DNA of 64,000 nt from Fibrobacter sp. UWB16 (GTDB lineage Bacteria > Fibrobacterota > Fibrobacteria > Fibrobacterales > Fibrobacteraceae): NCBI RefSeq assembly GCF_900215325.1, contig NZ_OCMS01000003.1, positions 62,001 through 126,000 on the forward strand, given 5' to 3'. This document shows positions 2,538 to 25,788 of this stretch, piece after piece (within the stretch, counting starts at the first letter, position 1; each line of letters starts with the position of its first letter). The notes beneath the pieces were generated by a model. That model was not told where the DNA came from and did no database searches. It saw only the letters and a program-made list of their open reading frames with translations. Made by a program: the position numbers and the translations under genes.

Positions 2538-2585
2538 AAATTAATCTCGCAAAAAGAAGTAGAAAATATCGGAAATAAAACATTT

Positions 2586-3203
2586 ATGTCATATACGGGA
2601 TTCCTTTGTAACCGTCCCCCGAATTGGGTAGGGTCTGTCTGGGAAAAATATTCCTACAGAATATACAAATTGTGCCTGCAAAAGTGTGGGACTAAAGAAG
2701 ATGCAGACGACTTGTTTCAGGAGGTTGCGCTTCGCTTTTGCAAAAAGGCCGGGGAGCTGAAGTACGGATCCCATCTGTTGCCATGGTTCAATACCGTGCT
2801 TTTGCATTGCCATTACAGCGAATACCGCAAAAAAGTCACTAACCGCGAAGTTCCGCTATCTTGCCTTTGCGAGCCCAAGGCCAGTTACGACGGGGATGAC
2901 GACGATGATGCTTTTGCGCTACCCGATGGAAACGTAAGCGTAGATGATGTCATGACGGAGTATTCCGTTTTGCTTCAGGCACTAAATCCGATGGAGAAAA
3001 TGATTGTCGAACTTTCGGTTGTCGGTGGGCTTCGTGTCTGTGATTTGAGCCAGTTGTTCGGGCTATCTAAGGGGAGCATAACCAAGCGCCGGATGGCGGC
3101 GTATCAAAAAATGCGTGAAAAAATGATGTCGCAGAAAGATCGGCTCAAGATGATAACGGGCCGGGACGCCACATTGCGGGAAATTATTGAATATGCAGGT
3201 TGA
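2586..3203 (+). CDS. RNA polymerase sigma factor, ECF-like sigma-70 family
   Basis: A 205-residue protein with sigma region 2 (about 20-90; the acidic helix reads TKEDADDLFQEVALRF) and region 4 (about 140-185; LNPMEKMIVELSVVGGLRVCDLSQLFGLSKGS), a typical helix-turn-helix. An acidic linker (DGDDDDDAF) joins them. I chose the ATG at 2586; the frame stays open upstream into dsbD, but the upstream residues do not look like sigma sequence. No anti-sigma gene is adjacent. The next gene, a PorZ-like secreted protein, starts only 29 bases downstream on the same strand, so the two may be co-transcribed. ECF factors usually control envelope or stress genes. The target is unknown. Confidence 0.85.
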   Translation: MSYTGFLCNRPPNWVGSVWEKYSYRIYKLCLQKCGTKEDADDLFQEVALRFCKKAGELKYGSHLLPWFNTVLLHCHYSEYRKKVTNREVPLSCLCEPKASYDGDDDDDAFALPDGNVSVDDVMTEYSVLLQALNPMEKMIVELSVVGGLRVCDLSQLFGLSKGSITKRRMAAYQKMREKMMSQKDRLKMITGRDATLREIIEYAG

Positions 3204-3232
3204 AATGTTTTTAAAATTTGTAATTTTAGAAT

Positions 3233-9281: not shown

Positions 9282-10436
9282 CTAGAAAATGAGTGCCTGC
9301 GGGAATCCCGTGTGCCACTTTTCGGAACCTGGGTCGTAAGCGTCAAATCCGCCTGTGTAGCCAAATCCCCAGTAGTGGAACGACATATCGTTCAGGATGG
9401 CGGCCTTTGCTGCTGCATTTGCCCATTCGGCCTTGCCGGCTTCGCTCGGGCCTGTTCCGCCTTGCCAGTCGCAGGGGCTTACGTCACCACCTGCAATGCC
9501 AAATTCGCCCATGTTCATAGGAACGTGGTGGACTCCGTCAATGTCCGGATAGAGCGTTAGAGCCGTCTTGGCGTAGCTAGCGAGGTCGCGTGATGCGGTA
9601 ATGTTCTTTGCGTTATCGCCAACGCAGTTGTAGCCGTGTCCCTGATGGCTATACTGGTAAGGTTCGTAGTAGTGACCACTATATATGATGTTTCCGTCTA
9701 GCGGCAAATGCAGTATGGAAAGGTCTGCAAATTTTGCCGCATGGTAAGATTCGAACATAATCGTCTTGCCCGGAGCGTATGTGCGGATGACACTGTAGGC
9801 GTCATTCATCAGCTTGTCCACGACGTCCTCATAAGGAATCGTGGGTTCGTTCAGGATTTCGAGTACCACCTGGTTGTCCTGAAATTCGCCCATGGCTGCC
9901 GCCACTTGTGCCCACATGCCGAGGAAGTGTGTCTTTTCGGCTTGGAACTTTGCGGCGTCATATTGGCATTTGGTGCCGTCGCTTTCGTTTCCGCCACCAC
10001 CGGCGCAATTCAATTGGGTATAGTGATGGAAGTTCACGACTACGGCAAGGCCGTTCGCGATGGCGAGTCGGATATCTTCCAAAACACCTGCAAGGCGTTG
10101 CGGGTCGACCGTGTGGCTTGTGTAGTCAGAGCCGTTCTGCCAGCGGACCGGAATTCGCACGGAATTAAAGCCTGCTGCCTTGATAATGGCGAAATCTGTA
10201 TCGCGGATGGGGTTACTCCAGGCGCCATCATCGTAACCGTCAGATTCCCAGGAGTTGCCCAGATTGATGCCTCGTCCGAGAATAGCGTTCATCGTTCTAC
10301 CCAGGGTGTAGTCCACAGGGACTGCTGCGTTTTGGCTTGCGTCTTTGCTTGGGTCGTATTCTGGTGGTGCATCCGTGGTACCGCAAGCCCAGAATGTGCA
10401 GCCGATAGCCATTGCAGAAAGAAGTTTTTTAAACAT
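9282..10436 (-). CDS. Lipoprotein GH5 endoglucanase (cellulase)
   Basis: A 384-residue cellulase of glycoside hydrolase family 5. The start ATG at 10436 has GGGGG five to six bases upstream; a TTG four codons earlier is less likely. The signal peptide ends in a lipobox (FWAC, Cys18), so the enzyme should be membrane-anchored. The GH5 landmarks are GINLGNSWE (57-64), VRIPVRW, VVVNFHHY, the acid/base Glu197 in EILNEP and the nucleophile Glu311 in MGEFGI. Four further Cys could pair. The gene is divergent from a six-gene envelope operon, and the intergenic region between them holds a striking repeat. Cellulose or another beta-1,4-glucan is the likely substrate. Confidence 0.93.
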   Translation of the reverse strand: MFKKLLSAMAIGCTFWACGTTDAPPEYDPSKDASQNAAVPVDYTLGRTMNAILGRGINLGNSWESDGYDDGAWSNPIRDTDFAIIKAAGFNSVRIPVRWQNGSDYTSHTVDPQRLAGVLEDIRLAIANGLAVVVNFHHYTQLNCAGGGGNESDGTKCQYDAAKFQAEKTHFLGMWAQVAAAMGEFQDNQVVLEILNEPTIPYEDVVDKLMNDAYSVIRTYAPGKTIMFESYHAAKFADLSILHLPLDGNIIYSGHYYEPYQYSHQGHGYNCVGDNAKNITASRDLASYAKTALTLYPDIDGVHHVPMNMGEFGIAGGDVSPCDWQGGTGPSEAGKAEWANAAAKAAILNDMSFHYWGFGYTGGFDAYDPGSEKWHTGFPQALIF

Positions 10437-10529
10437 GGTTACCCCCAAAAATTGGTGTCATCCTCAAAGTACTGTTCTCAAAATCTATATAAATAAAAAA
10501 TCTAAAAAATAAAAACAAGCTTATCTTAT

Positions 10530-10628: not shown

Positions 10629-10765
10629 GCGTTTATGTGGCTTAACAAGCGGTATTCCGTTGATACATCTAGCTTTGCAAAGCCTTTTTTGCAAAATACC
10701 GGATCGAAAATTCCCAAAAACAAGCTATATTGTAGATGATCCGAATTTGGAGAATTGTACCTATT

Positions 10766-11509
10766 ATGAATGGAAACTTTAAAAAAGCCATTTGGAAGTC
10801 CGCTCTAGCGGCGATGCTTCTTGCTTCATCTTCTTTCGCTGGCTACGGTTTTAGCGATTATCGCGACCGCGACCAGTCCCACTTTGTCATGAAGGATCCT
10901 AAGCCGTTCCGTCCTGATAAGGAAGTTGTCACCGTTGTCATGCGCGAAGCAATTCCGCGTGGTGGTGGCTATACCTACCAGTATCCGCGTGAAAACCCCG
11001 AACCGGTACTCACGGATAAGTACGCTATGGAAGGTGCACTCTCCATGGAAATCGAACTTATCGCGAGCGACTATTCCGGTGTCGCTATTTGTATTGCGGG
11101 TTCTGTGGATTTGACGCCTTACCTCGAAGAAGGTGTTCTCGAATTTTGGCTTAAAGGTGCCCAGGGTGGCGAAAACGCATTGTTCGTACTCGTCGATGAC
11201 GGCGTGAAGAGCAACGGCGAATCCCTCCAGGTGAAGCTCCGCTCCAAGAGCCTTGGTGAAATTACGACAGAATGGAAGCACTTCAGCATTCCTCTGAAGC
11301 TCTTCGGCAATACCGGTGTTTACTGGGATGCCAAGAACACGCGCGAAGTGATGCTCCCGTTCGCATGGTCCAACTTCAAGGGTTTCCGTCTCGAAGTCCG
11401 CAAGGATGAAAACGAATCCTTCAAGGTTTGGATTGACGATATTGTGATTAAGAAGCATGGCAAGCCGTACGAAGGCCCGGCTCATTATCCGTTCCGTAAC
11501 GAGATTTAA
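10766..11509 (+). CDS. Exported jelly-roll protein, CBM11/galactose-binding-like; first gene of envelope operon
   Basis: A 247-residue exported protein. I chose the ATG at 10766 because it opens directly into a signal peptide (FKKAIWKSALAAMLLASSSFAG). The mature part has the order of a CBM11/CIA30-type jelly roll: GALSMEIEL, EGVLEFWLKGAQGGENALFVLVDD, TTEWKHFSIPL, FKGFRLEVRKD and the closing VWIDDIVIKK. That fold usually binds carbohydrate, but no ligand residue can be assigned with certainty. It is followed nine bases later by the first outer-membrane barrel gene. I infer a periplasmic or surface glycan-binding component. An independent role is possible, since no catalytic motif is present. 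Confidence 0.75.
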   Translation: MNGNFKKAIWKSALAAMLLASSSFAGYGFSDYRDRDQSHFVMKDPKPFRPDKEVVTVVMREAIPRGGGYTYQYPRENPEPVLTDKYAMEGALSMEIELIASDYSGVAICIAGSVDLTPYLEEGVLEFWLKGAQGGENALFVLVDDGVKSNGESLQVKLRSKSLGEITTEWKHFSIPLKLFGNTGVYWDAKNTREVMLPFAWSNFKGFRLEVRKDENESFKVWIDDIVIKKHGKPYEGPAHYPFRNEI

Positions 11510-11518
11510 GAGGATTTT

Positions 11519-13774
11519 ATGCGCAAAACAGTTTCTTCCCTTTTACTAGCGTCTAGCCTCGGTGCTGCGTGGGCTCTTCCTCCGCAGTTGCAGCTTGATT
11601 CCCTTCACGCTTCGTTGGATACTCTTTCCGGCAACATGGAATCCACGCTCCTCGGCAAGGACGATCTGCCACTGGCAGTCTCCGGTTACATGGCTTTCCG
11701 TTTGAAGAATTTCCACTATTCTGAACAGAGCCCCTGGGTTCGCGATGACCAGGCCCGCACAAGCGTTGACGCTCTCTTGAACGTGAACGTTGTCGCCATG
11801 CCGAACTCCTACATTACGTTGTTCACGAACCTCATGTTCCCGTTTGACATGAGCGGTCTCTTTACGAACAGCTATGCAAAGAACCCGACTCAGATTCCGA
11901 ACAATCACGATGAACGCGTCTTGTTCGACCACTCTACCGACTATTATTCTTCGACTATCAACGAAGAAATGAATGCCGGTGTCGATATCCGTGCCGGTGT
12001 GTTCGGTGCCTACATCACCGCAGGTGGTGTTATCTGGGCAAACGCTTCCCCGCTTACCATGTGGGAACGTGAAACGAACCCGCGTTTCGTTTGGCAGTAT
12101 GAACTTTTCGAAGACGAAAAGACCGTTTCTACCTATTATAAGGAAAAGGCTTTCAAGCCGGTCAAGGAAGGTGGTCGTGCATTCTGGACGAATCGCTCCT
12201 TTGGTGGTGTTTTTGCTAACATCTATCAGCTCCCGTATGATTTGAAGGCTCAGTTCCTCGTTTCTCAGCCGGTCGATGCTGACATGGCTACCCGTGACGG
12301 TCTCCGCATGTACGGTGGTCAGCCGGGCGAACTCGAAATGATGGGTGGCTACGACTTCCGCGGTACAGTCCTCCATGGTCGTATCGCCAAGGAAAAGATC
12401 GCTGACAACCTTACTCTCGGTGTGAACTACATGGGCATCACTTATGACGAAGGTGCCATTTATGAAGGCGAATTCCGTGGTCAGTGGACTGATCTCGGAC
12501 TGAATCCGACACTCCTCAATACCCATATAGCATCTATCGATGTCAAGGGTAACATCACTCCGAAGCTCTTCTTGATGGCTGATCTTGGCTTGAGCTTTAC
12601 CGATTCCACGATTTTCTACCAGTCCGAAACGGCTGATAACTTCGTCGCAGGTGATGCTTCCAAGGGCTACATCAGCGATGCTCACAGGTCCAGTATGGCA
12701 TCCCCGAAGCTTGGTCTTTATATCAAGGCCCAGAGCAAGTATGTTGAAGGCTGGCCGATGACTGCCGAAATCGTGTTCTTCCAGCCGGGCTTCTACTCTC
12801 CGTATTCTCTTTCCAACCCGTCCCGTTTCCCGGGCTGGCGCAAGGATGAATTCTACCTCAACGCCGGTGCTCTCCGCTATTCCCCGAACATGGCCGGTAT
12901 CAACTTCAAGTTGGAACCGAGCTTCAACCGCGGTTACTTTGACTTCCAGTATGCTCAGCATCGTCAGATCGACGCTGGTCAGGATGTGGTCGCATTCAAC
13001 TACCGCTTGAACGGCCGCAACATGTGGGAAAGCACCAATTCCTGGACCAAGCACAAGCCGCTCTTCGTGGCTGACTCCGGTAACACCAGAGGTGCTTCTT
13101 ATATTTCCCGTGTCGGTGTCCAGAGAGATGCTGGCGAAGGTGTCAAGATGACTCGCCAGCGCGGTGGTCTCTATGGTGGTACCTGGGAAATGTGGGAATC
13201 CTTTGCTGCATTCGAAAATGGCAAGCAGGTTATTGAACAGAAGGTTCCGATGCATGCCAAGTGGTCTACTTACCTCTCCTTCATGGGTGGTTACGATATC
13301 GGTCACTGGTTCGGTACCGACCGCAACATCATGATGACTGGCTTTGTTGCCCTTTCTGGTGTTTCTACTTCCTTTGCTCCGATTGCCGTCTCCGAAAAGC
13401 AGTCCGGCATGCTCATGACGAGCTTCTTCGGCCAGTTTGAACCGACCGTCGCTGTGACTCCAACCTTCCACATGGTGGGTATCCTCGGCCTTGAAACCTT
13501 CAGGTCTGACAAGGCTTACATGATTACTGCACTCAAGAATGTCGCTAAGCCGACCGGTGCTGCAAACTACTATTACGAAGTGGACCCGAATATGTATGAA
13601 AAGGCTCCGATCAACTACAAGGACTTCGCAATTGGCCTTGGCTTTGACTGGGACTTCTCTGATCGCGTAGGTCTCCATTTCCGCTACAAGTTCATGACGC
13701 ACTCTGATGAAACCGTTCCTGACAATGATTGGCATTCCCATTACATTGCTGCCGAAACCAAGGCATGGTTCTAA
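11519..13774 (+). CDS. Large predicted outer-membrane beta-barrel protein, unknown family
   Basis: A 751-residue protein with a signal peptide (VSSLLLASSLGAAWA) and a short coiled segment (LQLDSLHASLDTLSGNMES). The body is one long run of alternating amphipathic strands (for example YMAFRLKNFHYS, NSYITLFTNLMF, NLTLGVNYMGITYD and GLHFRYKFMTHSDE). It ends in an aromatic residue (ETKAWF), the usual outer-membrane barrel signal. I see no TonB box or plug domain, so it is not a typical TonB receptor. It sits nine bases after the jelly-roll gene and six before the next barrel gene. The function is unknown; the operon context suggests glycan capture or surface assembly. Confidence 0.8.
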   Translation: MRKTVSSLLLASSLGAAWALPPQLQLDSLHASLDTLSGNMESTLLGKDDLPLAVSGYMAFRLKNFHYSEQSPWVRDDQARTSVDALLNVNVVAMPNSYITLFTNLMFPFDMSGLFTNSYAKNPTQIPNNHDERVLFDHSTDYYSSTINEEMNAGVDIRAGVFGAYITAGGVIWANASPLTMWERETNPRFVWQYELFEDEKTVSTYYKEKAFKPVKEGGRAFWTNRSFGGVFANIYQLPYDLKAQFLVSQPVDADMATRDGLRMYGGQPGELEMMGGYDFRGTVLHGRIAKEKIADNLTLGVNYMGITYDEGAIYEGEFRGQWTDLGLNPTLLNTHIASIDVKGNITPKLFLMADLGLSFTDSTIFYQSETADNFVAGDASKGYISDAHRSSMASPKLGLYIKAQSKYVEGWPMTAEIVFFQPGFYSPYSLSNPSRFPGWRKDEFYLNAGALRYSPNMAGINFKLEPSFNRGYFDFQYAQHRQIDAGQDVVAFNYRLNGRNMWESTNSWTKHKPLFVADSGNTRGASYISRVGVQRDAGEGVKMTRQRGGLYGGTWEMWESFAAFENGKQVIEQKVPMHAKWSTYLSFMGGYDIGHWFGTDRNIMMTGFVALSGVSTSFAPIAVSEKQSGMLMTSFFGQFEPTVAVTPTFHMVGILGLETFRSDKAYMITALKNVAKPTGAANYYYEVDPNMYEKAPINYKDFAIGLGFDWDFSDRVGLHFRYKFMTHSDETVPDNDWHSHYIAAETKAWF

Positions 13775-13780
13775 GGGAGG

Positions 13781-16147
13781 ATGCTAAAGATGAATATGAA
13801 AATGAAAAATATTTTAATCGCCCTTCTTACTGCATCGGTTGCCGCATCGGCTTCTGCTGTTGCTGATAATCAAAAGGCCCTGCAGGCCAAGGCTGATAGC
13901 GCCAATGCAAAGCGCGGTGTTGAAATTGGCGGTAGCATTCGTGCTGTTGCCCAGCGTTCTAGCTTCTCGACTGATCAAGACAAGACTGGTATCAACTCGA
14001 TGCCGGATGTGGAACGCAATGAATTTGTCACTGCTGACTTGAACTTTGGCTTCCGTCCGTACGAAAGTGTCCGTGCCAACGTCTTGATGCGCCTTGGCGG
14101 CGGTATGCAGGAATACTTCGCTGCTGCTTCCAAGACTATCGAAGCCAAGTGGCTCAATGTCGAAGGCAATGTCGGCAAGAACTTCTACTGGGTTGTCGGT
14201 GATTTCCGTTCTGCGATTTCTCCGCTCTCCATTTACAGACCCGGTATCGACATCATGTACGAACCGACGATTTTCGCCCGTAAGCGCCACATGGCCGAAA
14301 AGGAACAGCTCCTCGAAGGTAACCAGCGCAACCTCCAGGGTGTGAATCTCCAGTTCCGTCAGGAAATCGATCCGATGATTGGCGAAGTCCGTGCCGAAGC
14401 TATCTTTGCACGCCTGAACCGCGTCTCGGTCCTCGACTTTAGCGGTGCCGAAGGCAATATCCTTCCGAATGACTCCATTGCAGGTACTTCACTTTCTTCC
14501 GCAACGGACAAGTGGGTTATCGGTGGTAACTTCGAACTCCTTCCGATGCAGAAGAATGTGTTCGTCGGTGTGACCCCGATGTACGTCTTTGACAACGAAA
14601 ATTCGAAGTCTTACACCTACCGTCACCCGGATCCGAGATCTTTCAACCCGGATGACCCTGAAGGAACGGGTGCCTATGAGCTTCAGGATATCAACCCGTT
14701 CGTTTCCTTCCCGCAGAAGACTTTCGTCTTGAGCATCCGCGCTGGCGTCGATGCCGGTGCTCTCATCAAGGTTCCGGGCTTGAGCCTCGACCTTGTGGCT
14801 GAATACGCTTTGTCTTCGAACAAGGTTCCGAGCTATGCAGAAGACCCGGCTACAGGTGATGCTATTGAAGGCCCGGAAGAAAGCGTGAGCGGTTCTGCCT
14901 TGCTCGTCAACTTGAATGCTGGCTACAAGGTTGAAAACTCCTGGAGCGCAGGCCTTTCCTTGGACTTCATCCGCAACGACGAAAAGTGGTTTAACAACCT
15001 CGCTCAGTCTCCGAGCTTCTTTGCTCAGCGCATCTTGAATTCCGATAAGGATGGCAACACGGTCAAGTATGGCGTGAACTCTCCGCTCTACTCCACTTTC
15101 GATGCTCTCTATAACTACTCTCCGAAGTTCACTCCGGTTGCTCGTTCTCTCGGTACGGATGACAACGCTTTCATTGAAGGTCAGACCGATAGCTACAACA
15201 TTGCTCCGTATAACAAGAACTCTTGGGGTAACAATGTCTACTCTGCCGAACAGCTTGCTCTCATCAACATGATGGCTGACCCGGCTCTCCAGCTTGCTTT
15301 GCCGAACGGTCTTGCAACTGCAAACCGCATGGGTGTTCGCGCTCTTATCAAGGGCGACTGGCAAGAAAAGGTCGAAGCCCAGGCTCTCGTGACCATCATG
15401 AACCAGGTGAAGAGCGAATTCGAAGCTGTTGACAAGGTTTCCTACATGGAATTTGGCGGTGGTGCAAAGGTTGATATCGCAAAGATTGCTGGCCTCAGCA
15501 AGTCTGCTGAACTTGCAGGTTCCTTCAAGCATTCTGAAAGCAAGACGACTCTTGTTGCTGGCTCTGCTATGGCAACGGAACTTGGCGTTTCCGAAGGCAA
15601 GGTTTCTAGCGACTTCATCAACGTTGGCGCCTCCTTCCAGTTCTTGCCGCGTCTCGGTGTTACGGCTGGCTTCCAGATGATCAATACCGATTACGGCGTG
15701 TTTGCAAATCCGTATGGTGAATTTGTTGGTGTGGATGTTCCTCTTATGAAGAGCAAGCAGATGCATGTGATGGGCGGCTTCGATTACTCTGTTGCTCAGA
15801 ATGCATGGCTTTCCTTGAATATTGGCCTCATTACCGTTCAGAATGATTACAATACCTCCTCGCTGGCTGATGCTTATGATGCTGCTTATCCTGCTGAACT
15901 TGAAAAATCTTTGAAATCCGCCAAGAACCAGAAGAGTAAAACTGGTGATGTCGAGCTCGATGCAAACGAAGTTGCTACGGTGACTAAGAATGTCAAGAAG
16001 AAGCTCTATAGGGAAAAGATTAAACAGCAGTACAGGGTAGCAAATATGCCTGATTACTATAACATTGAAGATTTGGGAGCGCCGAAAACATATACGCATA
16101 AGTTCTCCCAGATGATTTTTGAAGCTTCCATTAATGTGGAATTTTAA
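13781..16147 (+). CDS. Large predicted outer-membrane beta-barrel protein, paralogue of next gene
   Basis: A 788-residue protein with a signal peptide (ILIALLTASVAASASA) followed by a short helical stretch (NQKALQAKADSANAKRG) and then barrel-like strands ending in INVEF. It shares clear landmarks with the protein encoded directly downstream: EPTIFARKRHMAEKE against EPEIFAEKRREALAQ at about residue 165, and DPALQLALPNGLATANRMG against DPSVGLALPLGMATPDRKG near residue 500. This shows an old duplication inside the operon. A Lys-rich insertion near residues 705-750 is not shared. Some codons upstream of 13790 offer a second start (MNMKMKN). No known family is recognised; surface or porin-like function is inferred. 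Confidence 0.8.
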   Translation: MLKMNMKMKNILIALLTASVAASASAVADNQKALQAKADSANAKRGVEIGGSIRAVAQRSSFSTDQDKTGINSMPDVERNEFVTADLNFGFRPYESVRANVLMRLGGGMQEYFAAASKTIEAKWLNVEGNVGKNFYWVVGDFRSAISPLSIYRPGIDIMYEPTIFARKRHMAEKEQLLEGNQRNLQGVNLQFRQEIDPMIGEVRAEAIFARLNRVSVLDFSGAEGNILPNDSIAGTSLSSATDKWVIGGNFELLPMQKNVFVGVTPMYVFDNENSKSYTYRHPDPRSFNPDDPEGTGAYELQDINPFVSFPQKTFVLSIRAGVDAGALIKVPGLSLDLVAEYALSSNKVPSYAEDPATGDAIEGPEESVSGSALLVNLNAGYKVENSWSAGLSLDFIRNDEKWFNNLAQSPSFFAQRILNSDKDGNTVKYGVNSPLYSTFDALYNYSPKFTPVARSLGTDDNAFIEGQTDSYNIAPYNKNSWGNNVYSAEQLALINMMADPALQLALPNGLATANRMGVRALIKGDWQEKVEAQALVTIMNQVKSEFEAVDKVSYMEFGGGAKVDIAKIAGLSKSAELAGSFKHSESKTTLVAGSAMATELGVSEGKVSSDFINVGASFQFLPRLGVTAGFQMINTDYGVFANPYGEFVGVDVPLMKSKQMHVMGGFDYSVAQNAWLSLNIGLITVQNDYNTSSLADAYDAAYPAELEKSLKSAKNQKSKTGDVELDANEVATVTKNVKKKLYREKIKQQYRVANMPDYYNIEDLGAPKTYTHKFSQMIFEASINVEF

Positions 16148-16162: not shown

Positions 16163-18340
16163 ATGATGTTCAATAAGAAAATTTCTGCTTTTGGTCTTTC
16201 TTCTGCGATTCTGCTCTCGGCTGCGACAGCATTTGCTGCTGAAAATCAGACGGAAGTCGTTACGCAACAGAAGTCCCTTTTGGAAAAGCTGGATTCTCTC
16301 AATGCAGCGGTGCTTGGACTTAAGATTAACGGTACGGCAAAGGCCGGTGTCCTTGCTTCCTTTGCTTCTTCTGACCAGTTTGCTGACAACTCTCCGACTC
16401 AGGAAAACCAGGCTTTCACGGATGTGAACCTGCGCTTGACCGCTCGTCCGAGCTCCGAGACGATGATCGATGTCCAGTTGCGTTTGCACAAGGATTGGCA
16501 GAGTGCCTATGACGAAAACAACAACCCGGTTATTGGTCACTGGTTCAGCTACGATGGTACGATCCTGAACAAGCATGTGGACTTCAACTTGGGTTACATG
16601 CGTGTCGGTTACACCCCGCTCACCATCAACACTCCGCAGACAGAAGTTCTCCAGGAACCGGAAATCTTTGCAGAAAAGCGTCGTGAAGCCCTTGCCCAGC
16701 GCAACCTCGATACTACGAGCCGTCGCCTGTTGCATGGTCTCAATGTCGCTTACCAAAGTGGCAGCGTTGGCGCGGTCGATAACATTACCGCCCAGCTCAC
16801 GGGTGCTCGTCTTCGCAATACGGCCAAGAAGGCAGACCAGTTGTTCTTCGACTTCGACTTCTCTGACCGCTACCTCCTTGGTGCTCGCGCCGGTGTCGAA
16901 GCCTACGGTGCTCATGTTGGCTTGAACTATGTCAATGCCTTTGACCGTAAGCAGACTCGCCGTTCTAAGGACCTCGATGATCTTGATACTATCTACTATG
17001 AAAAGAATCAGGTCTTTTCTGCAGATATTGCATTCGATTCCAAGAAGGTGCTTCCGCAGTTGCCTATCACGTTCGGCTTGAATGGCGAATTTGCCATGTC
17101 CAACTGGAAGGTTGACCGTGATTACAACTATACGGGAAAGAAGGTCTCTTATAGGGTTAACCAGGCTACAGATGCTAACGACAAGCAGTTTGCTTACGTG
17201 AAGTCTTCTCTGGAAAAAGATCCGCACTATGTGAACGAAGAATACCTCGATCTGGATGGCAAGAGCTTCTATGCCGATGTCTTTGCTAAGGGTAACGTCA
17301 GTGATGTTGACTTCAAGGTCAGCGCCGGTTACTTCCAGACGGATTCCAACTTCTGGTCTGAAATGGCATCTTCTCCGGTCTATCAGGGTCGTTCCACGAT
17401 TCTTAACACTGGCGCCCTTTATACCGATTCTTCTTATGCAGACTTGATCTTGGGGACCTTCGGTGCTTCTAGCCTCGAAAACCTCTACTTCAGTGTCTAC
17501 AACTCTACGACGTTGCAGGCTGGCAACTTGATGTCTTCGGGTAAGAAGAACATCCTCAGTGAATTTGGCAGCTTAGAAAGCCCGAACCTCTTCTACCGTT
17601 TGGACAACAACTACAAGAATGGCCACTTCTACCGTAACGGTTATACTTCGAACATTGCTAAGAAGCGCGAACTTGATCCTTTGACGGTTCTTGATCCGTC
17701 TGTGGGTCTTGCATTGCCGCTCGGCATGGCTACGCCTGATCGCAAGGGCATTACTGCCAAGGCCGATGTGAACTGGGCTGACAAGGTGTTCTTCAACGCC
17801 CGTGTCAACTTGGTTACTCAGGGCAATCTGCCGAGCTTCGACGCTGAAGGCAATCCGATTACGATCGAAAACAAGTTCACCGAATTTGCTGTGGGTCTCG
17901 GTGTCGATGCTGGCGCTCTTGCTGGTCTTGACCGTAAGATCCTTGTTCAGGGCTCTTTCTCCAATGGCTCTGAAGACTCCTACCTGAACCGTAAGGTTAC
18001 TCGTATCGTTGCCGGTGTGACCGCCGATGTCTGGGGCCCGATCTCTGTGCTCGCCGGTTTCCAGATGTACGAAAAGAAGTTTGGTGACAATGGCTATACC
18101 GTTGCTTCTACAGACGAGAACGGAGCTATTATTGCAGCGGCTGCTGTGACCAAGGCTAGCGAACAGTTGATCATGGGCGGTGTCCGTGTGAAGCTTGCGC
18201 CGATCTCTTACTTGACCGTCCAGTATGGCATGCTCAAGAACGACCTCGACTTCAACGTTGCTGGTCTGACTGGCCTGGTTGCTAAACAAATTTCCATCAG
18301 CAAGAATGTTATCCTTGCCGATGTAACGGTGAATTTCTAA
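16163..18340 (+). CDS. Large predicted outer-membrane beta-barrel protein, paralogue of previous gene
   Basis: A 725-residue protein with a signal peptide (SAILLSAATAFAAEN), a short predicted coiled coil (VVTQQKSLLEKLDSLNAAV) and barrel strands to the C-terminal VTVNF. The paralogy with the preceding gene is best seen at EPEIFAEKRREALAQ and LALPLGMATPDRKGITAK. The coiled segment straight after the signal peptide appears in all three barrels of the operon and could drive assembly of a complex in the periplasm. GGAGG lies upstream of the ATG. No TonB box, plug or enzymatic motif was found. The lipoprotein gene starts 11 bases after the stop. Confidence 0.8.
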   Translation: MMFNKKISAFGLSSAILLSAATAFAAENQTEVVTQQKSLLEKLDSLNAAVLGLKINGTAKAGVLASFASSDQFADNSPTQENQAFTDVNLRLTARPSSETMIDVQLRLHKDWQSAYDENNNPVIGHWFSYDGTILNKHVDFNLGYMRVGYTPLTINTPQTEVLQEPEIFAEKRREALAQRNLDTTSRRLLHGLNVAYQSGSVGAVDNITAQLTGARLRNTAKKADQLFFDFDFSDRYLLGARAGVEAYGAHVGLNYVNAFDRKQTRRSKDLDDLDTIYYEKNQVFSADIAFDSKKVLPQLPITFGLNGEFAMSNWKVDRDYNYTGKKVSYRVNQATDANDKQFAYVKSSLEKDPHYVNEEYLDLDGKSFYADVFAKGNVSDVDFKVSAGYFQTDSNFWSEMASSPVYQGRSTILNTGALYTDSSYADLILGTFGASSLENLYFSVYNSTTLQAGNLMSSGKKNILSEFGSLESPNLFYRLDNNYKNGHFYRNGYTSNIAKKRELDPLTVLDPSVGLALPLGMATPDRKGITAKADVNWADKVFFNARVNLVTQGNLPSFDAEGNPITIENKFTEFAVGLGVDAGALAGLDRKILVQGSFSNGSEDSYLNRKVTRIVAGVTADVWGPISVLAGFQMYEKKFGDNGYTVASTDENGAIIAAAAVTKASEQLIMGGVRVKLAPISYLTVQYGMLKNDLDFNVAGLTGLVAKQISISKNVILADVTVNF

Positions 18341-18351
18341 GAGGTGCTAAA

Positions 18352-19053
18352 ATGAAAAAATTTCACCAGTACATGATGATTCTCTTGGCAGGTGTTTTGG
18401 GCGCCTGCTCCTCGATGAGTGTTGACGACCCTTATGAAGAAAACTTTCCTGAGGGTTTCGATGCTAACGTCTATGTGGAATTGCATCCTGAACTCCGCAT
18501 CGCAGAAATTAGAGACTATGTGGCTTACCGCAATGAAGTGGTTTCTGATTCCATGAAGAAAGCTGGTGTGGATGATGCTACTTTGGCTGCATTTACCACC
18601 AATGACGAAACGGCGTTCCTTGCCAATTCTGTTTTAACCCAGTATGTCTATACGGGTTTGATTGGACATTCTGCTGAAAGTTGGACTGCCTATCTGACGC
18701 AAAAAGCCGTGTTGGCAGCGGATCCTTCGGACAAGGATGCTAAGCAGGCTGTTTCGAAGGTTGAAAAGGAATTGAAGGAATTCAATTTCATCAACGTTAC
18801 GGAAGACCAGAATACTTGGAATAACGTTCCGAAAGACCTGACCGCATATTCAATGCAGTATACTCTGTATGGTCAGTCTCATGGTTGGGCTTATCGCTAC
18901 TGCAACGATAATGAAAAGGTCGCAAATCCGCTCGTCCCGGAAAAAGATCTGGATGACGGTAAGCCTGCAGGAACGAATCCGACGGATTTTAGTCCTATAA
19001 CATACCTTGTCTGCTATGACAATGTCAGCTTGGTCAATCGTGTGATTCAATAG
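18352..19053 (+). CDS. Lipoprotein of the envelope operon, unknown function
   Basis: A 233-residue lipoprotein: the signal MKKFHQYMMILLAGVLGAC gives a lipobox with Cys19. The mature sequence is mostly helical and acidic, with no domain I recognise; the segment VYVELHPELRIAEIRDYVAYRNEV is the most conserved-looking part. GAGG precedes the ATG, and the gene lies 11 bases after the third barrel gene and 16 before the GH18-like gene. Small lipoproteins next to barrels often act as plugs, lids or periplasmic connectors, as in Sus-type systems, but that role is inference only here. Confidence 0.75.
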   Translation: MKKFHQYMMILLAGVLGACSSMSVDDPYEENFPEGFDANVYVELHPELRIAEIRDYVAYRNEVVSDSMKKAGVDDATLAAFTTNDETAFLANSVLTQYVYTGLIGHSAESWTAYLTQKAVLAADPSDKDAKQAVSKVEKELKEFNFINVTEDQNTWNNVPKDLTAYSMQYTLYGQSHGWAYRYCNDNEKVANPLVPEKDLDDGKPAGTNPTDFSPITYLVCYDNVSLVNRVIQ

Positions 19054-19069
19054 GATAAGAGGTAATCAA

Positions 19070-20122
19070 ATGAACTTTAAAGTTATTACATTGGCTCTTG
19101 CCATGGGCGCTGCAATGGCCCAGGCTGCCGCTGACAAAGTGATTGGCTTCTATCCGTATTGGAGTCAGTATTCTCAGTTCTATGCCAAGGATATCCGCTA
19201 CAATCTCGTGACCGACATCCACTACATGTCTATCACTCCGACTGCAGAAGGTACGGTTGCTTTTGCTGACGAATACGATGCCGACAACTTCAAGAACCTT
19301 GTAAGCATGTCCAAGGAAAATGGCGTGAAGCTGATTGTTTCCGTGGGCGGCATGGAAGCTGAATCTAGCCTCAAGGCTATCGCTTCTTCTGACGAGACTC
19401 TTTCCACGTTTGTTTCGAATGTGAAGGAATGGCTCTCCACGAATGGTGGCGATGGCGTTGAACTCGACTGGCAGAACCTCACGACGGACGATTCCGAAGA
19501 TTACGCCAAGATGCTGAACGCCTTGGTCGATGGTCTTTCGGGCTCTACTGTGACGGCTGTGATTTACCCGGCTTTGGGCTTGGACGCCTACAAGGCCGAA
19601 GCCTTGAACCGCGCCGCTTACGTGGATGTGTTCATGGCTGACCTTATGAACGAAAGCGAAAGCAGCCTCGTTCCGAACCAGAGCGCAAACTCTGTGCAGG
19701 AAACGCTTGACGCTGTTGTAGCCGCCGGCGTGAACAAGGATCTCCTTGCTCCGGTGGTGTTCCTTTACGGTAAGTCCTTTGCTGGTGCCAAGGGCCTCGG
19801 CTCTAGCCACACAGGCGTTGGAAGTGGCAATGAAGGCTACCTCCCGTACGCAGAACTCATGAACCGCTTCGATACTCCGGATTACACGGTGACTTTCGAT
19901 GAAGCAACCAAGTCCGAAGTGGCTGTGAGCGAAACCGAATCTATCGTGTTCATGGGTATCCCGTCTGTGAAGGCTGTGGCTCAGCACGTGAAGAGCGAAG
20001 GCATGGCAGGCGTTGCCGTGTACGACCTCTCCCAGGACCACTACGAACCGATCGTCTCGCTCCTCGTGACGGTTGGTCTCGAACTCCGTCCGGGCGTGAA
20101 CTACAAGGCTTCCAAGAAGTAA
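19070..20122 (+). CDS. Exported GH18-fold protein with substituted catalytic site (likely binding protein)
   Basis: A 350-residue exported protein (signal MNFKVITLALAMGAAMAQAAA) with the GH18 TIM-barrel pattern: VIGFYPYWSQYSQF, LIVSVGG (SxGG at 91-94) and then DGVELDWQ at 128-135. Active GH18 enzymes carry DGxDxDxE there. Here the third residue of the triad is kept (Asp133), but the middle Asp is Glu131 and the catalytic acid is Gln135. The codon is cag, read directly. GH18 hydrolysis needs that Glu, so this protein is probably a lectin-like binder. It is the last gene of the operon and is followed by a terminator. An unusual hydrolase with a displaced acid cannot be excluded. Confidence 0.85.
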   Translation: MNFKVITLALAMGAAMAQAAADKVIGFYPYWSQYSQFYAKDIRYNLVTDIHYMSITPTAEGTVAFADEYDADNFKNLVSMSKENGVKLIVSVGGMEAESSLKAIASSDETLSTFVSNVKEWLSTNGGDGVELDWQNLTTDDSEDYAKMLNALVDGLSGSTVTAVIYPALGLDAYKAEALNRAAYVDVFMADLMNESESSLVPNQSANSVQETLDAVVAAGVNKDLLAPVVFLYGKSFAGAKGLGSSHTGVGSGNEGYLPYAELMNRFDTPDYTVTFDEATKSEVAVSETESIVFMGIPSVKAVAQHVKSEGMAGVAVYDLSQDHYEPIVSLLVTVGLELRPGVNYKASKK

Positions 20123-20184
20123 TTCTCGGAGTTCGCGGGAATCGCGAGATTGACAAAATCCGCGAGACTTACAAACGCTTTTAA

Positions 20185-20221
20185 AAATCCTCGACGCAAT
20201 AAAGCGCCGAGGATTTTTTTA
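20185..20221 (+). terminator. Rho-independent terminator of the envelope operon
   Basis: AATCCTCG and CGAGGATT pair, with the inner GCG/CGC reinforcing the stem, followed by a run of seven T. It closes the six-gene operon before the GH9 gene. Confidence 0.88.
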
Positions 20222-20262: not shown

Positions 20263-20399
20263 TTATCGCTATGAAAACAGGCGAAGCCACCCGCTACACT
20301 CGATACACTTGGCGTTGCCTATAGTAAACATTAAAGTGGGTGGTGCAGGTACACTTTTATAAAAGAAAAGGTATTTTTTAAACAAAAATGAGGTTTTGT

Positions 20400-22160
20400 A
20401 TGCGTAAACATCTAGTAGCTGCGTTAGCGTTTGCTGTGCCGACAATGGCTATCCCCCTGATGAACCAGCTTGGCTTTGCCCCCGAATCCGAAAAGACGGT
20501 CGTCATCCCCGGTAACGATGCGAACCCACTCGAAGTCCGTGACATGGCGGGCAACACGGTGCTTACGCTCGAAGCTCCGATGGTCTATGACTGGGATTAT
20601 AGCGGCGAAGAAGTCCAGACGTACGATATTTCTTCGATTAAGAAGCCGGGCACGTACCGTTTGTATAGAGACGGCTATATCGGCAACCCGGTCGTGATTG
20701 GCGAGAACGTCTATGAAGATTTGACGAAGGCTGCCCTCAAGTGGTTCTACTACCAGCGTGCAGGCATGGCTCTCGATACGCGCTATGCAGGCAAGTGGGC
20801 TCGTGCCGCTGGCCACATTGACGATAGCGTGACGGTTTACGGTACGGATTTGCCGACGGCGACGGTTGTGGCGCAGTCCAAGGGCAAGCCTGCTCCCAAG
20901 AAGGCTGACCCGAAGATTATCAAGTCGCAGCGCGGCTGGTACGATGCCGGTGACTACGGCAAGTATATTGTGAACTCGGGCATTACCGTGTTTACGCTTT
21001 TGGAACTTTATGAACACTTCCCGGCATTCATGGATACGCTCCAGTGGAACATCCCGCGTGAATTCCCGAAGATGCCGGCGCTCCTCGAAGAAATCCGCTG
21101 GAATCTGGACTGGATGCTTTCGATGCAGGACAAGGACGGCGCTGTTTACCACAAGCTCACGTCGCTCAAGTTCGGCTCCAGCACGATGCCTGAAATTGAT
21201 GGCGCCAAGCGTTACGCCATTGAAAAGAGCTTGACTGCAACGCTTGACTTTGCAGCAGTGATGGCTCAGGCTTCTCGCGTGTATGCTCCGTTCGACAAGG
21301 CTTTTGCTGACCGCATGCTCAAGGCTTCTGGTGCCGCCTATTACTGGGCAAAGCACAATCCGAAGGCCTTGTACAAACAGCCCTCCGATGTGCAGACCGG
21401 CGACTATACGTATGGCGGCGAAGACGGCAAGGATGAATTTGCCTTTGCTGCAACGGAACTTTTCCGCGCCACAAAGAAGAAGAATTACCTCAATGACTTG
21501 AGCGCTTACAAGCTCAGAAGCGATGGACCGTGGTGGGGCGATGTGAACATGCTCGCCGTTTACCATGTGGCTCTTGATTCTGCGGACTTTGGCGCAAAGC
21601 TCGGTGGTGCCGCTCGCAAGGCTTTGCTTGCCGCTGCAAACGAACTTCGTGCAATTGGCGATACGAGCGCTTACAGACTCCCTGCAACTCCGTCGAGCTG
21701 GAACTGGGGCAGTAACAGTGCCATGGCAAATAACGGAATCGTGTTGCTCCACGCTTATTACGTCACGGGCGACAAGAGCTACTTGGATGGCGCCCAGCAG
21801 TGCCTCGATTACCTCTTGGGCAAGAACCCGATTGAAATGACGTATGTGACTGGCTTTGGCTACAGAAGCCCGCGCAACCCGCATCATCGTGTGAGCGAAT
21901 CTGACTTTGTTGATGATCCGGTCCCGGGCATGCTCGTGGGCGGCCCGCATTTGGGCAAGCAGGATATCAACCTCGATGGCAAGGAACTTTGGAAGTGCCC
22001 GAACTACGCTGTTGCAGACAAGCCGGCACTTGCCTACATCGATAACCGTTGCAGCTATGCAACAAACGAAGTGGCCATCAACTGGAACGCTCCGCTTGCA
22101 TATCTCGCTGGCGCCTTGCAGGCCATTTACGTAGGCCACGCCAATGCGGTTGTGAAGTAA
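20400..22160 (+). CDS. Secreted GH9 cellulase with N-terminal Ig-like domain
   Basis: A 586-residue endoglucanase. The ATG at 20400 has GAGG six bases upstream; an ATG four codons earlier is possible. A signal peptide (KHLVAALAFAVPTMA) leads into a CelD-type Ig-like domain (about 18-105; NQLGFAPESEKTVVI, YDISSIKKPGTYRLY). The GH9 domain follows: GWYDAGDYGKYIVNSG holds the general-base Asp pair (182 and 185), NPHHRVSES is the substrate His motif, and Glu557 in ATNEVAINWNAP is the proton donor. All catalytic residues are intact. It sits directly downstream of the envelope operon but has its own terminator-bounded unit. Confidence 0.95.
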   Translation: MRKHLVAALAFAVPTMAIPLMNQLGFAPESEKTVVIPGNDANPLEVRDMAGNTVLTLEAPMVYDWDYSGEEVQTYDISSIKKPGTYRLYRDGYIGNPVVIGENVYEDLTKAALKWFYYQRAGMALDTRYAGKWARAAGHIDDSVTVYGTDLPTATVVAQSKGKPAPKKADPKIIKSQRGWYDAGDYGKYIVNSGITVFTLLELYEHFPAFMDTLQWNIPREFPKMPALLEEIRWNLDWMLSMQDKDGAVYHKLTSLKFGSSTMPEIDGAKRYAIEKSLTATLDFAAVMAQASRVYAPFDKAFADRMLKASGAAYYWAKHNPKALYKQPSDVQTGDYTYGGEDGKDEFAFAATELFRATKKKNYLNDLSAYKLRSDGPWWGDVNMLAVYHVALDSADFGAKLGGAARKALLAAANELRAIGDTSAYRLPATPSSWNWGSNSAMANNGIVLLHAYYVTGDKSYLDGAQQCLDYLLGKNPIEMTYVTGFGYRSPRNPHHRVSESDFVDDPVPGMLVGGPHLGKQDINLDGKELWKCPNYAVADKPALAYIDNRCSYATNEVAINWNAPLAYLAGALQAIYVGHANAVVK

Positions 22161-22228: not shown

Positions 22229-23824
22229 TTATTCGTCGAGCGTCACTTCCACAATGCCGCGGACGGAATTGAAGCAGTAGATTTTCTCGGCGGTCTTGAG
22301 GTCACTCGGGTACAGGATTTTTTCTTTGGCTTTGCCTTCGTTTAAAAGTTTTTGTCTTGTGATGCCGTTTAAAAGCCCGCACTCGATAGGCGGCGTGTAG
22401 ATGATGCCATCTTTTAGAATGCCGATGTTCGTGAATGTGCCTTCGGTGATTTCGCCTTTCTCGTTTACGCAGATTTCATCAAAGGCGTCTTTCGGGAATG
22501 GCAAGCGGATGCTCGTTTTGTGGTACAGGAACGGATTGGATGAGTTTACTTTGTGTACGATTTTGATTCTTGGATTTTGCTTGGGTGCAGGAATCGGTCT
22601 TGTCGTGAGTTCAAAGTGACCATCTTTGAAAAGCTCAATCCTGTTCACAACGGACTTGTCGAACTTGATTTTTTCAAGGTCGCTATTCCAGGTGAAGCCG
22701 AGGGTGTTCGCTGAATTTTTCAAACGTTCAAGATGCATCTCGAAATCGGTGATGCCTGTTTCAATCAGCGAAAAATCGGTATTTAAAAAACTTGCTTTGG
22801 TCATTGTTTCATTCCATTCGTCATCTGCGGTAGATGCCCACGTGATGGCGCCGCCGGCATCGTATCTGTATTCCGATTCGCCTTGCTTTTTCTGCAAGAT
22901 TCTGATGGGGACGGAGAAAATCATTTCGTCGCCGTGGATGTAGCCGATGGCGCCGCAGTACACTTCTCGTGGGAACGGTTCTGCATTTGCAATGACTTCC
23001 ATTGTAGAAATTTTGGGCGCGCCTGTGATGGAACCGCATGGGTAAATTGCATTAATGATGTCGTAAAGCGTTGTGCCGTCTTTCAGTTCCGATGAAATCT
23101 CGGAAGTCATCTGGAAAACGGTTTTGTGCTTTTCGACTTCAAATAGCTTGTCGGCGCGGACGGTTCCCGGCTTTGAAATTCTCCCGAGATCGTTTCGCAG
23201 CAAGTCGACAATCATGACGTTTTCGGTGCGATTCTTTAAGTCGTTGTGCAAGAATTCTTGCAACGCATTGTCTTCTTCGGAAGTCTTGCCGCGCTTGAGC
23301 GTTCCCTTCATGGGCTTTGTCAAAATCTTGTTACCGCACTTCACAAAAAACAGTTCCGGCGAAAACGATAAGATGGTCTCGTACTTATTTTGCAAAAAGG
23401 CGTTGTAAGGGGTCTTCTGGTTTTGCAAAAGGAACTGGTACAAGTCTAATCCAATTGCGTTTGTTCTTAACGTTGAAGGATATGTGTAATTGACTTCGTA
23501 TGTGATCCCGTTCTTGATTTGCTCTTTGATGTATTCAATCTTTTGTGTGTATTCTTCTTTGGATAGGCGCGGTTTTACGATGGTGCCGATTTTGTAGTTG
23601 GGGATTTTTTCTTCGAACGGCTGGAACGAATCGAAAGCTTCAAAGTAGATAAGGGGTGCGTCGGCAGATACGTTTTTGAGGTCGTAGCGCATGTAGCCGA
23701 GAAGGTGATAGCCTTGGCGTTGCAAAGATTCAATTCTGTTGAGTGCGGATTGGACTTTTTGCGGGTCGAAAATTTCAATCGTTTCGATCGGATTATTAAA
23801 TACTTTATTGGCGTATATTTGCAT
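22229..23824 (-). CDS. Aminodeoxychorismate synthase component I / aminodeoxychorismate lyase fusion (PabB-PabC)
   Basis: A 531-residue bifunctional enzyme for p-aminobenzoate, the folate precursor. The N-terminal half (about 1-330) is the chorismate-binding fold of PabB: FSPELFFVK, TKPMKGTLKRG, DLLRNDLGRIS and GSITGAPKISTME. The C-terminal part (about 340-531) is a PLP-dependent class IV lyase: FSLIETGI, HLERLKNSANTLGF, ITEGTFTNIGI and GLLNGITRQKLL. I placed the start at the ATG at 23824; the open frame runs 34 codons further but without PabB-like sequence. The glutaminase subunit PabA is not encoded nearby. Such fusions are known in many bacteria. Confidence 0.92.
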   Translation of the reverse strand: MQIYANKVFNNPIETIEIFDPQKVQSALNRIESLQRQGYHLLGYMRYDLKNVSADAPLIYFEAFDSFQPFEEKIPNYKIGTIVKPRLSKEEYTQKIEYIKEQIKNGITYEVNYTYPSTLRTNAIGLDLYQFLLQNQKTPYNAFLQNKYETILSFSPELFFVKCGNKILTKPMKGTLKRGKTSEEDNALQEFLHNDLKNRTENVMIVDLLRNDLGRISKPGTVRADKLFEVEKHKTVFQMTSEISSELKDGTTLYDIINAIYPCGSITGAPKISTMEVIANAEPFPREVYCGAIGYIHGDEMIFSVPIRILQKKQGESEYRYDAGGAITWASTADDEWNETMTKASFLNTDFSLIETGITDFEMHLERLKNSANTLGFTWNSDLEKIKFDKSVVNRIELFKDGHFELTTRPIPAPKQNPRIKIVHKVNSSNPFLYHKTSIRLPFPKDAFDEICVNEKGEITEGTFTNIGILKDGIIYTPPIECGLLNGITRQKLLNEGKAKEKILYPSDLKTAEKIYCFNSVRGIVEVTLDE

Positions 23825-23985
23825 AATCACAGGACTCGTTTTTGACGGCGCAAATATAAATATTGCTATACAAGAAAGTCGTTCTAATGTTAATAGTCTG
23901 TTACAATTACGGTTACTTTGTAGCAAGTTTGTAACATTTTTGAAAATAAGCGATTTCTTGCAAGTTTTCAGTATATATTACTGGC

Positions 23986-24131: not shown

Positions 24132-24297
24132 AAGAAGGCGAAATAGGACTATTGGGGTTAGTGGTCAAAAAGTCAAAATTATATGCAATTTTTTCTATGA
24201 AATTCTTGATAAAATGTGATGAAATTGTTATAATTTTATCACATTTTTTTAACCGTCTTCGGCAAATTATGTGTGGTCGGAGAATAAAGGATTGAAT

Positions 24298-25788
24298 ATG
24301 AGAAAAAAACTACTCTTTGCGCTTGCTTTGGTTTGCGCTTATTTTGTCGGTTGTGCTGATTACGACGATTCTTCGGATAATCATTCTGTCGGCCCAAACG
24401 AAAAGGAAGCTGTGATTGACACTGCCCGCTATACCGTTATTATTTATGGCAATGCTGGCGGTGATATGGATTCCATCATTGAAGGTGTTTATGAACAAAT
24501 GCCGTCACTGATGAAGAGCAAGGATGTTCGTGTATTTTTTACCTATAAATACGGAGCCGATTCTTCTGTTGTAGGTTATGATGAAGATGATAACCTCATA
24601 AAAACGCCCTTTAATGGAAAATATGCTGAGCCTGGGCAATTGGTCGCTTTTGAAATGACTAAGGATTTGGATTTGGATACGATTAAGGATCATGCCCGCA
24701 TGGCTGGTGAGTCTATAATGATGCATGATCCGGGCAGACTTACGAGCGTGTTGGATTATGTTGCGGATAGTCTCCCTGCTAAAGACTACGTGCTTGTTTT
24801 TTGGGGACATGGCCAAGGCTTTGACTTTGATGTTGATTTTCCTGAATTGCACGCGAATCGGACTGCTTTGGCTAAATCGCAGGATTTGGCTGCCGTTATG
24901 TACGATGAGTGGACTCTTGATTTGGAAACGGGTGTGAAAGATGGCATGAATATATACGAAATTAAGGAAGAAATTGAAAATTCGAAAATCAAACATCTCG
25001 CAGGACTTTATTTCCACAACTGCTTTATGGGCAATTTCGAAACTTTGAGTGAAGTTTATACCGTTGCCGATTATATGGTTGCTTCGGAACATGTGCTGGA
25101 GTCTGATGGAACCTTGATTTTGAACCTGGTCAAGGAACTGTATAAGAAAGACAGTTTCCAAGAAGCTGTTAAAGCCTCGTTTAAAGATTCGAAGGATCAC
25201 TGGAGAAAAGAAAACAAGAAGATGAAACAGAATGGCGACCTCAGCTTGTTGAAATCTTCTGAAATTAGTTCTTTCTTCCCGATTTTCAAGGATATCGCTA
25301 AGCGTTTGAATACTCTTTACGAAGATCCAAAGCAAAAGGATATCATAGATAACGCGGTCTTGGGTTCGTATTATACAGGCGAATGGGATTCTGAAATATT
25401 CTTTAACGATGTTATTTTCTTCGCTAATGTTTTGGCTTCTTTTACAGAAGATAGTTCTCTTATTGCATCCACGAAAGAACTTAAAAAGGCGTATGAAAGG
25501 TTGGTTGTCGACTATATTGATGCCCATTACAGTGATGGAAATGACATTCTTTCGTTCTCGTTGTCCGTTTTGTTGACTCCTCAATCTTTCTATAACGATG
25601 AAACCGTATGGGGTTATACACGTAAAGAAGCCTACGAAAATACAACATTCCATAAAAAGACGGGCTGGGGCAATTTGCTTAGCGTTCTTGACGGACTTGA
25701 CGTCCTTTACGAAAAACTCGCAAATCTCGGAGATGGAGACGAAGGCGGTTCCGGAGATGGAGACGAAGGCGATTCCGAAGAGGAATAA
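24298..25788 (+). CDS. Lipoprotein cysteine peptidase, clostripain family (C11)
   Basis: A 496-residue lipoprotein (YFVGC, Cys19). The peptidase core matches family C11: YTVIIYGNAGGDMD, LTSVLDYVADSLP, VLVFWGHGQG with the catalytic His171, and LYFHNCFMGNFETL with the nucleophile Cys242. Clostripain-family enzymes cut after Arg or Lys and some mature by self-cleavage. The start ATG at 24298 has AAAGGA upstream. The last residues are a duplicated acidic tail, GDGDEG twice then DSEEE; the DNA repeat GGAGATGGAGACGAAGGCG is tandem. The A/T-rich leader with TTTTTT near 24245 may contain the promoter. The substrate is unknown. Confidence 0.88.
   Translation: MRKKLLFALALVCAYFVGCADYDDSSDNHSVGPNEKEAVIDTARYTVIIYGNAGGDMDSIIEGVYEQMPSLMKSKDVRVFFTYKYGADSSVVGYDEDDNLIKTPFNGKYAEPGQLVAFEMTKDLDLDTIKDHARMAGESIMMHDPGRLTSVLDYVADSLPAKDYVLVFWGHGQGFDFDVDFPELHANRTALAKSQDLAAVMYDEWTLDLETGVKDGMNIYEIKEEIENSKIKHLAGLYFHNCFMGNFETLSEVYTVADYMVASEHVLESDGTLILNLVKELYKKDSFQEAVKASFKDSKDHWRKENKKMKQNGDLSLLKSSEISSFFPIFKDIAKRLNTLYEDPKQKDIIDNAVLGSYYTGEWDSEIFFNDVIFFANVLASFTEDSSLIASTKELKKAYERLVVDYIDAHYSDGNDILSFSLSVLLTPQSFYNDETVWGYTRKEAYENTTFHKKTGWGNLLSVLDGLDVLYEKLANLGDGDEGGSGDGDEGDSEEE

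Follow-up and report, generated by a model that had tools for sequence, protein, structure and literature searches.

The operon examined here, from Fibrobacter sp. UWB16, encodes predicted outer-membrane proteins, is flanked by cellulase genes, and ends in a GH18 gene whose catalytic motif is degenerate. This raises the question of whether the product cuts a glycan at all and, if not, what it contributes to the cell envelope. The question bears on how Fibrobacter, which has no cellulosomes, grips and degrades crystalline cellulose. The gene was studied within a 64,000-nucleotide stretch of contig NZ_OCMS01000003.1, hereafter the window, which contains the following features.

9282-10448, minus strand: divergent GH5 cellulase (PF00150, 98.7 bits)
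10736-11509, plus strand: CBM30 protein encoded by the operon's first gene (PF21582, 64.2 bits)
11519-13774, plus strand: OMP1, predicted outer-membrane protein with relatives throughout the phylum (C-terminal Phe in 92/92)
13781-16147, plus strand: OMP2, predicted outer-membrane protein (C-terminal Phe in 92/92)
16163-18340, plus strand: OMP3, predicted outer-membrane protein (C-terminal Phe in 95/95)
18352-19053, plus strand: fast-evolving lipoprotein of 233 aa (LGAC lipobox; no Pfam match above cut-off)
19070-20122, plus strand: open reading frame of 350 aa for a secreted protein of GH18 fold, predicted to be catalytically dead (Sec signal at about residues 1-20)
20183-20218, plus strand: intrinsic terminator hairpin with a T run at the operon end (dG -18.7 kcal/mol, z -6.0)
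20388-22160, plus strand: GH9 cellulase past the terminator, a separate unit (PF00759, 302.9 bits)

The order CBM30-OMP1-OMP2-OMP3-lipoprotein-GH18-like is maintained with intergenic gaps of 7-17 bp, and the hairpin, which was found by folding and is absent from the list of a consensus terminator scan, lies downstream of the last gene. The gaps and the hairpin bear out the original prediction that the GH18-like gene closes an envelope operon, and its co-transcription with OMP1-3 is likely. Among the orthologue genomes, the gene order is the same wherever a contig covers the operon; in several of the genomes farthest away the lipoprotein has diverged beyond detection, and the GH9 gene is seen in the closest relatives only. 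OMP1-3 contain no recognised Pfam domain and gave no SusC/TonB match, and the structure model of OMP1 (pLDDT 40) is too poor for use of the fold. Their signal peptides and the Phe that terminates every full-length orthologue checked suggest that all three are outer-membrane proteins. In one genome (G066), two complete copies of the operon lie on different contigs (L038 and L043), owing to either a duplication or a mixed assembly, and in one genome OMP1 and OMP2 form a single open frame of 1638 aa (L123, 1875-6788). Further out in the window are a sigma-70-family factor and, after it, a large protein whose C-terminal sorting domain is FlgD/CHU_C-like (2481-5545, plus strand), a fusion of PabB-PabC type between a chorismate-binding enzyme and a class IV aminotransferase domain (22229-23926, minus strand), and, close downstream, a Clostripain-family (C11) peptidase with a lipoprotein-like start (24271-25788, plus strand).

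The product of 19070-20122 belongs to the GH18 family by both sequence and fold. In a Pfam scan it matched PF00704 over its full length (residues 23-323), scoring 103.9 bits where the cut-off is 29.6. An AlphaFold2 model built from 18 sequences (pLDDT 69, pTM 0.75) is of moderate quality, pLDDT falling under 50 in residues 1-49 and in the tail, and matches GH18 structures throughout. The top matches were Ym2 (Z 31.3) and Ym1 (Z 31.2); since the active enzyme AMCase is tied with them (Z ~31), this ranking indicates fold only. The Sec signal ends in AMAQA ahead of an Ala, and the lipobox Cys that anchors Sus-type surface glycan-binding lipoproteins is absent. Pfam and NCBIfam scans likewise found no C-terminal sorting domain for type IX secretion (TIGR04183-type) in the protein. 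The residues on which the following argument turns are listed here, with assignments from the family and orthologue alignments.

19160-19162, plus strand: W31, an invariant aromatic residue (106/106) in the loop of strand 1, at the GH18 cleft
19340-19351, plus strand: SxGG motif, S91-G94 (S91, V, G93, G94), intact in the window protein
19361-19363, plus strand: E98, a new conserved acid right behind SxGG
19451-19474, plus strand: degenerate GH18 motif DGVELDWQ, residues 128-135, reading GATGGCGTTGAACTCGACTGGCAG
19460-19462, plus strand: E131 of this motif
19466-19468, plus strand: D133 of this motif
19472-19474, plus strand: Q135 of this motif
19637-19642, plus strand: A190-D191, equivalent to the Y-D of MxYD
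20021-20023, plus strand: Y318, where GH18 has a conserved Trp
20066-20119, plus strand: C-terminal tail past the barrel, VTxGxxLRPxxxYKxxKK, with the clade-specific invariants G336, P341 and Y345

Profile and PDB alignments pair Q135 with the catalytic Glu of DGxDxDxE, and E131 with its second Asp. The motif, the loss of the proton-donor Glu to Gln135, the change of the second Asp to Glu131 and the retention of SxGG had all been predicted from the window sequence, and each reading holds for the window protein. Of the features of an active GH18 enzyme, the protein thus keeps SxGG and lacks both a donor Glu in DxxDxDxE and the Tyr and Trp of the -1 site. It also shares with the chitinase-like proteins (chi-lectins) a GH18 fold with a naturally replaced catalytic Glu.

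To place these changes in the family, 111 of its genomes were searched and a match was obtained in 108. Most matches were orthologues, while a few incomplete genomes among the 108 yielded only a distant GH18 paralogue. The alignment set consists of 106 orthologous proteins from Fibrobacteraceae genomes, and eight intact Fibrobacterota GH18s served as the reference for active-site states. The original prediction left the conservation of the Gln to be checked. Gln occupies position 135 in only 81/106 orthologues, the others having Gly (12/106) or Ile, Val, Leu, Met, Thr, Ala or, in one genome, Asp, so the idea that the Gln is a conserved functional residue was rejected. What stood is the absence of Glu: a catalytic Glu in orthologues, one of two observations that would have counted against the prediction, was looked for and found in 0/106. 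For the second, a different acid at the catalytic site, the candidates seen were the Asp at position 135 of one genome and the new acids E98 and E131. Because Glu is never present at position 135, a sequencing error cannot account for the Gln. D131E is the change that is strictly conserved, with Glu at position 131 in 106/106, and D133 is retained in 105/106. The Tyr of MxYD is found in 0/106 orthologues and 8/8 intact GH18s, while its Asp (D191) is kept in 102/106; the Trp at position 318 is likewise found in 0/106 versus 8/8. In SxGG, the two Gly are present in 106/106 and the Ser in 73/106. E98 is Glu in 103/106 orthologues and Ser in 8/8 of the intact proteins, which makes it nearly one of the clade-specific invariants; these include Q33, Q36, E131, Y260 and the three tail residues. 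When sequences of >90% identity were removed, 56 remained with the same residue pattern. In genus g4 and G001 (L095, L097-L107), the motif has become ELDGG, with Gly in place of both W134 and Q135, and a single genome (G041; L108/L131) carries a Glu/Pro/Ala-rich insertion of ~40 residues soon after the degenerate motif, in the loop between strand 4 and helix 4.

The dN/dS against close orthologues is 0.03-0.18, with dS near saturation in more distant pairs. This range and the intact gene in 106 orthologues rule out a pseudogene. Taken together, the family-wide residue losses and the low dN/dS point to a non-catalytic GH18 that is maintained across the family rather than to a local mutation. 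Judged from sequence, a GH18 reaction by the window protein and its orthologues is very unlikely because the Tyr and Trp of the -1 site, in addition to the Glu at position 135, are missing throughout the family.

A role for the protein is suggested by published work on F. succinogenes S85. The S85 numbering, with Fisuc_1523 as GH5, Fisuc_1525 as CBM30 (29.2 kDa), Fisuc_1530 as GH18 and Fisuc_1531 as GH9 (PMC4619616, PMC4668043, PMC3079729), fits the order in the window, with exactly four genes separating CBM30 and GH18. By gene order, signal peptide length and family, the window gene matches Fisuc_1530/FSU_2012 (A7UG63, 'chitinase', CBP-9) as its S85 orthologue. PMC3079729 and PMC6851124 annotate it as a chitinase and give its characterised property as 'cellulose binding', and PMC4668043 also reports it as cellulose-binding; of the secondary papers, two credit the binding to Mitsumori 1996 and a third to another earlier outer-membrane study (Jun and colleagues). 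Fisuc_1530 is among the CAZy genes with high, stable and constitutive expression (PMC6204037), and the protein was detected in the outer membrane and at ~6-fold higher levels in the medium (PMC4668043). Our literature search found no description of the catalytic loss or the origin of FSU_2012/Fisuc_1530, which is published as a chitinase or GH18 only.

The lost Glu, Tyr and Trp together with the published cellulose binding support the lectin-like, rather than enzymatic, role that was originally predicted. Since the cutting residues are replaced in every examined rumen-type Fibrobacter relative that keeps the gene, the protein that usually carries the label 'chitinase' would most likely be a non-cutting, cellulose-gripping part of the outer-membrane machinery. 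Our favored explanation, which we hold with good but not full confidence, is a secreted pseudo-glycosidase in which the non-cutting GH18 barrel acts as a cellulose-binding subunit of the outer-membrane machinery for which the CBM30-OMP1-OMP2-OMP3-lipoprotein-GH18 operon codes. Cellulose, and not chitin, is probably its natural ligand. W31 and other cleft aromatics are retained in the barrel, and the remodelled cleft could contact the ligand through them. The protein may dock on the outer-membrane proteins or the lipoprotein of the operon, possibly via the clade-specific C-terminal tail, and would keep cellulose chains on the cell surface for the GH5 and GH9 cellulases encoded on either side. 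The case for stable docking is weakened by the excess of the S85 protein in the medium over the outer membrane. With this explanation, an abundant and constitutive envelope protein published as a chitinase would be recast as a family-wide pseudo-enzyme tied to OMP1-3.

The same conservation could also reflect a role directed at proteins, in which the dead barrel binds no sugar and serves the three OMPs as a scaffold, a plug or an assembly factor. The gene strictly accompanies OMP1-3 and is probably co-transcribed with them, and the tail of its product has invariant residues; both are consistent with such a role, as is the acceptance of Gly, Val, Ile, Leu and Met at position 135, which implies that no single cleft chemistry is needed. 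GH18 proteins with protein targets are also known, such as XIP-I and IDGF-type proteins (PMC3662789, PMC1945033). We nevertheless regard this role as unlikely given the cellulose binding reported for the S85 protein, the invariance of W31 and the cleft-face loops, which are more conserved than the helices (Mann-Whitney p 0.002), an effect that is modest and partly common to intact relatives.

A re-tooled enzyme, in which E98 or E131 (with D133/D191) stands in for the Glu and which acts on something other than a GlcNAc-based substrate, is quite improbable. The two new acids could in principle act as a displaced acid, and both the conservation of the carboxylate set E131, E98, D133 and D191 and the strong purifying selection fit this idea. 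However, E131 is located on strand 4 and precedes the donor site by four residues, which is two inward-facing positions, E98 is missing from three orthologues, and none of the orthologues has the Tyr and Trp that give the -1 site its shape. In addition, no report of activity of the S85 protein was found in the literature.

That the protein is an ordinary chitinase or an enzyme of peptidoglycan turnover, which is what the annotation says and what PMC6851124 assumes, where envelope chitinase activity drops alongside FSU_2012 abundance, is scarcely credible, since it is contradicted by 106/106 sequences, which lack the catalytic Glu as well as the Tyr and Trp, and since a motif-intact second GH18 can explain the activity. 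In that study, FSU_2012 was 1.3-fold less abundant on cellulose, the measured chitinase activity was also down, and the reduced activity was tied to the reduced abundance (PMC6851124). Given the residue losses throughout the family, FSU_2012 is unlikely to be the source of this activity. The genome of the window encodes a second GH18 with the intact motif DGLDMDWE (G000:C1:456407-457339, L001), matching Fisuc_2465/FSU_3030, the sole other GH18 listed for S85 (PMC3079729). Fisuc_2465/FSU_3030 is the better candidate for the S85 envelope activity, and the motif-intact GH18 of the window genome would likely be the real source of such activity. The connection drawn in the literature from FSU_2012 to chitinase activity and peptidoglycan turnover thus needs re-reading.

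The origin of the cellulose-binding pseudo-enzyme that we favor was traced by a survey of GH18s, dead and intact, covering the phylum Fibrobacterota. In the resulting GH18 tree, the dead proteins form one clade (100/99), and its sister (98/93) consists of intact GH18s from a family of the same class (f4) and one from the same order. In f4, the intact sister GH18 is divergently oriented and adjoins CBM30-like-OMP1-OMP2-OMP3, and 3' of OMP3 this chitin-type locus contains a GH20 gene (Pfam-tested in two genomes) and two further intact GH18s. The full arrangement, GH18 followed by CBM30-like-OMP1-OMP2-OMP3-GH20-GH18-GH18 (L166 7455-19687, L160, L162), resembles a Fibrobacterota counterpart of a Sus-type locus. 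In the second, cellulose-type locus, found in f4 and elsewhere in the phylum, a CBM30/CBM11 protein comes after OMP1-OMP2, and several f4 genomes have a GH9 close by. OMP1-OMP2 stand alongside a CBM30-matching protein across the phylum (L148-L157, L163, L164); in the f4 genome tested (L150) this is a large protein that matches CBM30/CBM11 and, weakly, a glycosidase, and a GH9 gene comes next.

The OMP2/OMP3 tree joins Fibrobacteraceae OMP2 to chitin-type OMP2 (100/98) and leaves the cellulose type outside. The unrooted OMP1 tree separates Fibrobacteraceae, chitin-type and cellulose-type loci into three groups and leaves their pairing undecided. A third OMP is shared only with the chitin-type loci and the same-order genome. 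The OMP2 grouping and the common third OMP therefore indicate that the Fibrobacteraceae operon is orthologous to the chitin-type locus, and we infer that the ancestor used chitin. The best reading is a single origin of the dead GH18, from a chitin-locus GH18 on the stem of the Fibrobacteraceae. A broader proposal, which we put forward tentatively at somewhat less than even chances, is that the entire cellulose-adhesion operon is a re-purposed chitin-utilisation locus that kept its OMPs, lost GH20 and the extra chitinases, came to be flanked by cellulases, and converted its chitinase to a cellulose-binding subunit once on the stem. The intact GH18 of the chitin-type locus and the dead one of the cellulose operon form a before-and-after pair that makes the conversion from enzyme to binder testable.

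Pseudo-chitinases of the Ym1/YKL-40 fold class are already known. What looks new is a bacterial case that spans a whole family, together with its origin and the operon around it. No clear precedent for bacterial surface glycan-binding proteins of GH18 fold was found in the literature. The mouse chitinase-like lectins Ym1/Ym2 (Chil3/Chil4) and the insect IDGFs share with the window protein a GH18 fold with an insertion domain and a Glu-to-Gln change at the catalytic site, a replacement that is also documented for oyster proteins (PMC1945033). The origins are independent: Ym1/Ym2 are secreted animal proteins, while the window protein is encoded in a bacterial outer-membrane operon at ~18% identity to them, and its family also carries D131E and does not strictly conserve the Gln. 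YKL-40/YKL-39 and OVGP1 are non-catalytic GH18 folds with Leu or Ile at the catalytic site, comparable to the orthologues with Ile, Val, Leu or Met at position 135, but they bind chitin-oligosaccharides in mammals, whereas the reported ligand of the window family is cellulose. The closest homologues, the chitin-type GH18s of f4 (L136, L137, L138), have GYYPxW, GxGSGN(D/E)G and IVFxGIPS in common with the window protein and differ in their full DGIDxDWE, MxYD and Trp and in a locus that adds GH20 and two GH18 genes. Finally, the Sus-like surface glycan-binding proteins of Bacteroidetes are non-catalytic glycan binders encoded with outer-membrane proteins and glycosidases. The window protein differs from them in having a GH18 fold, in not being a lipoprotein, and in its association with OMPs that lack a recognised Pfam domain.
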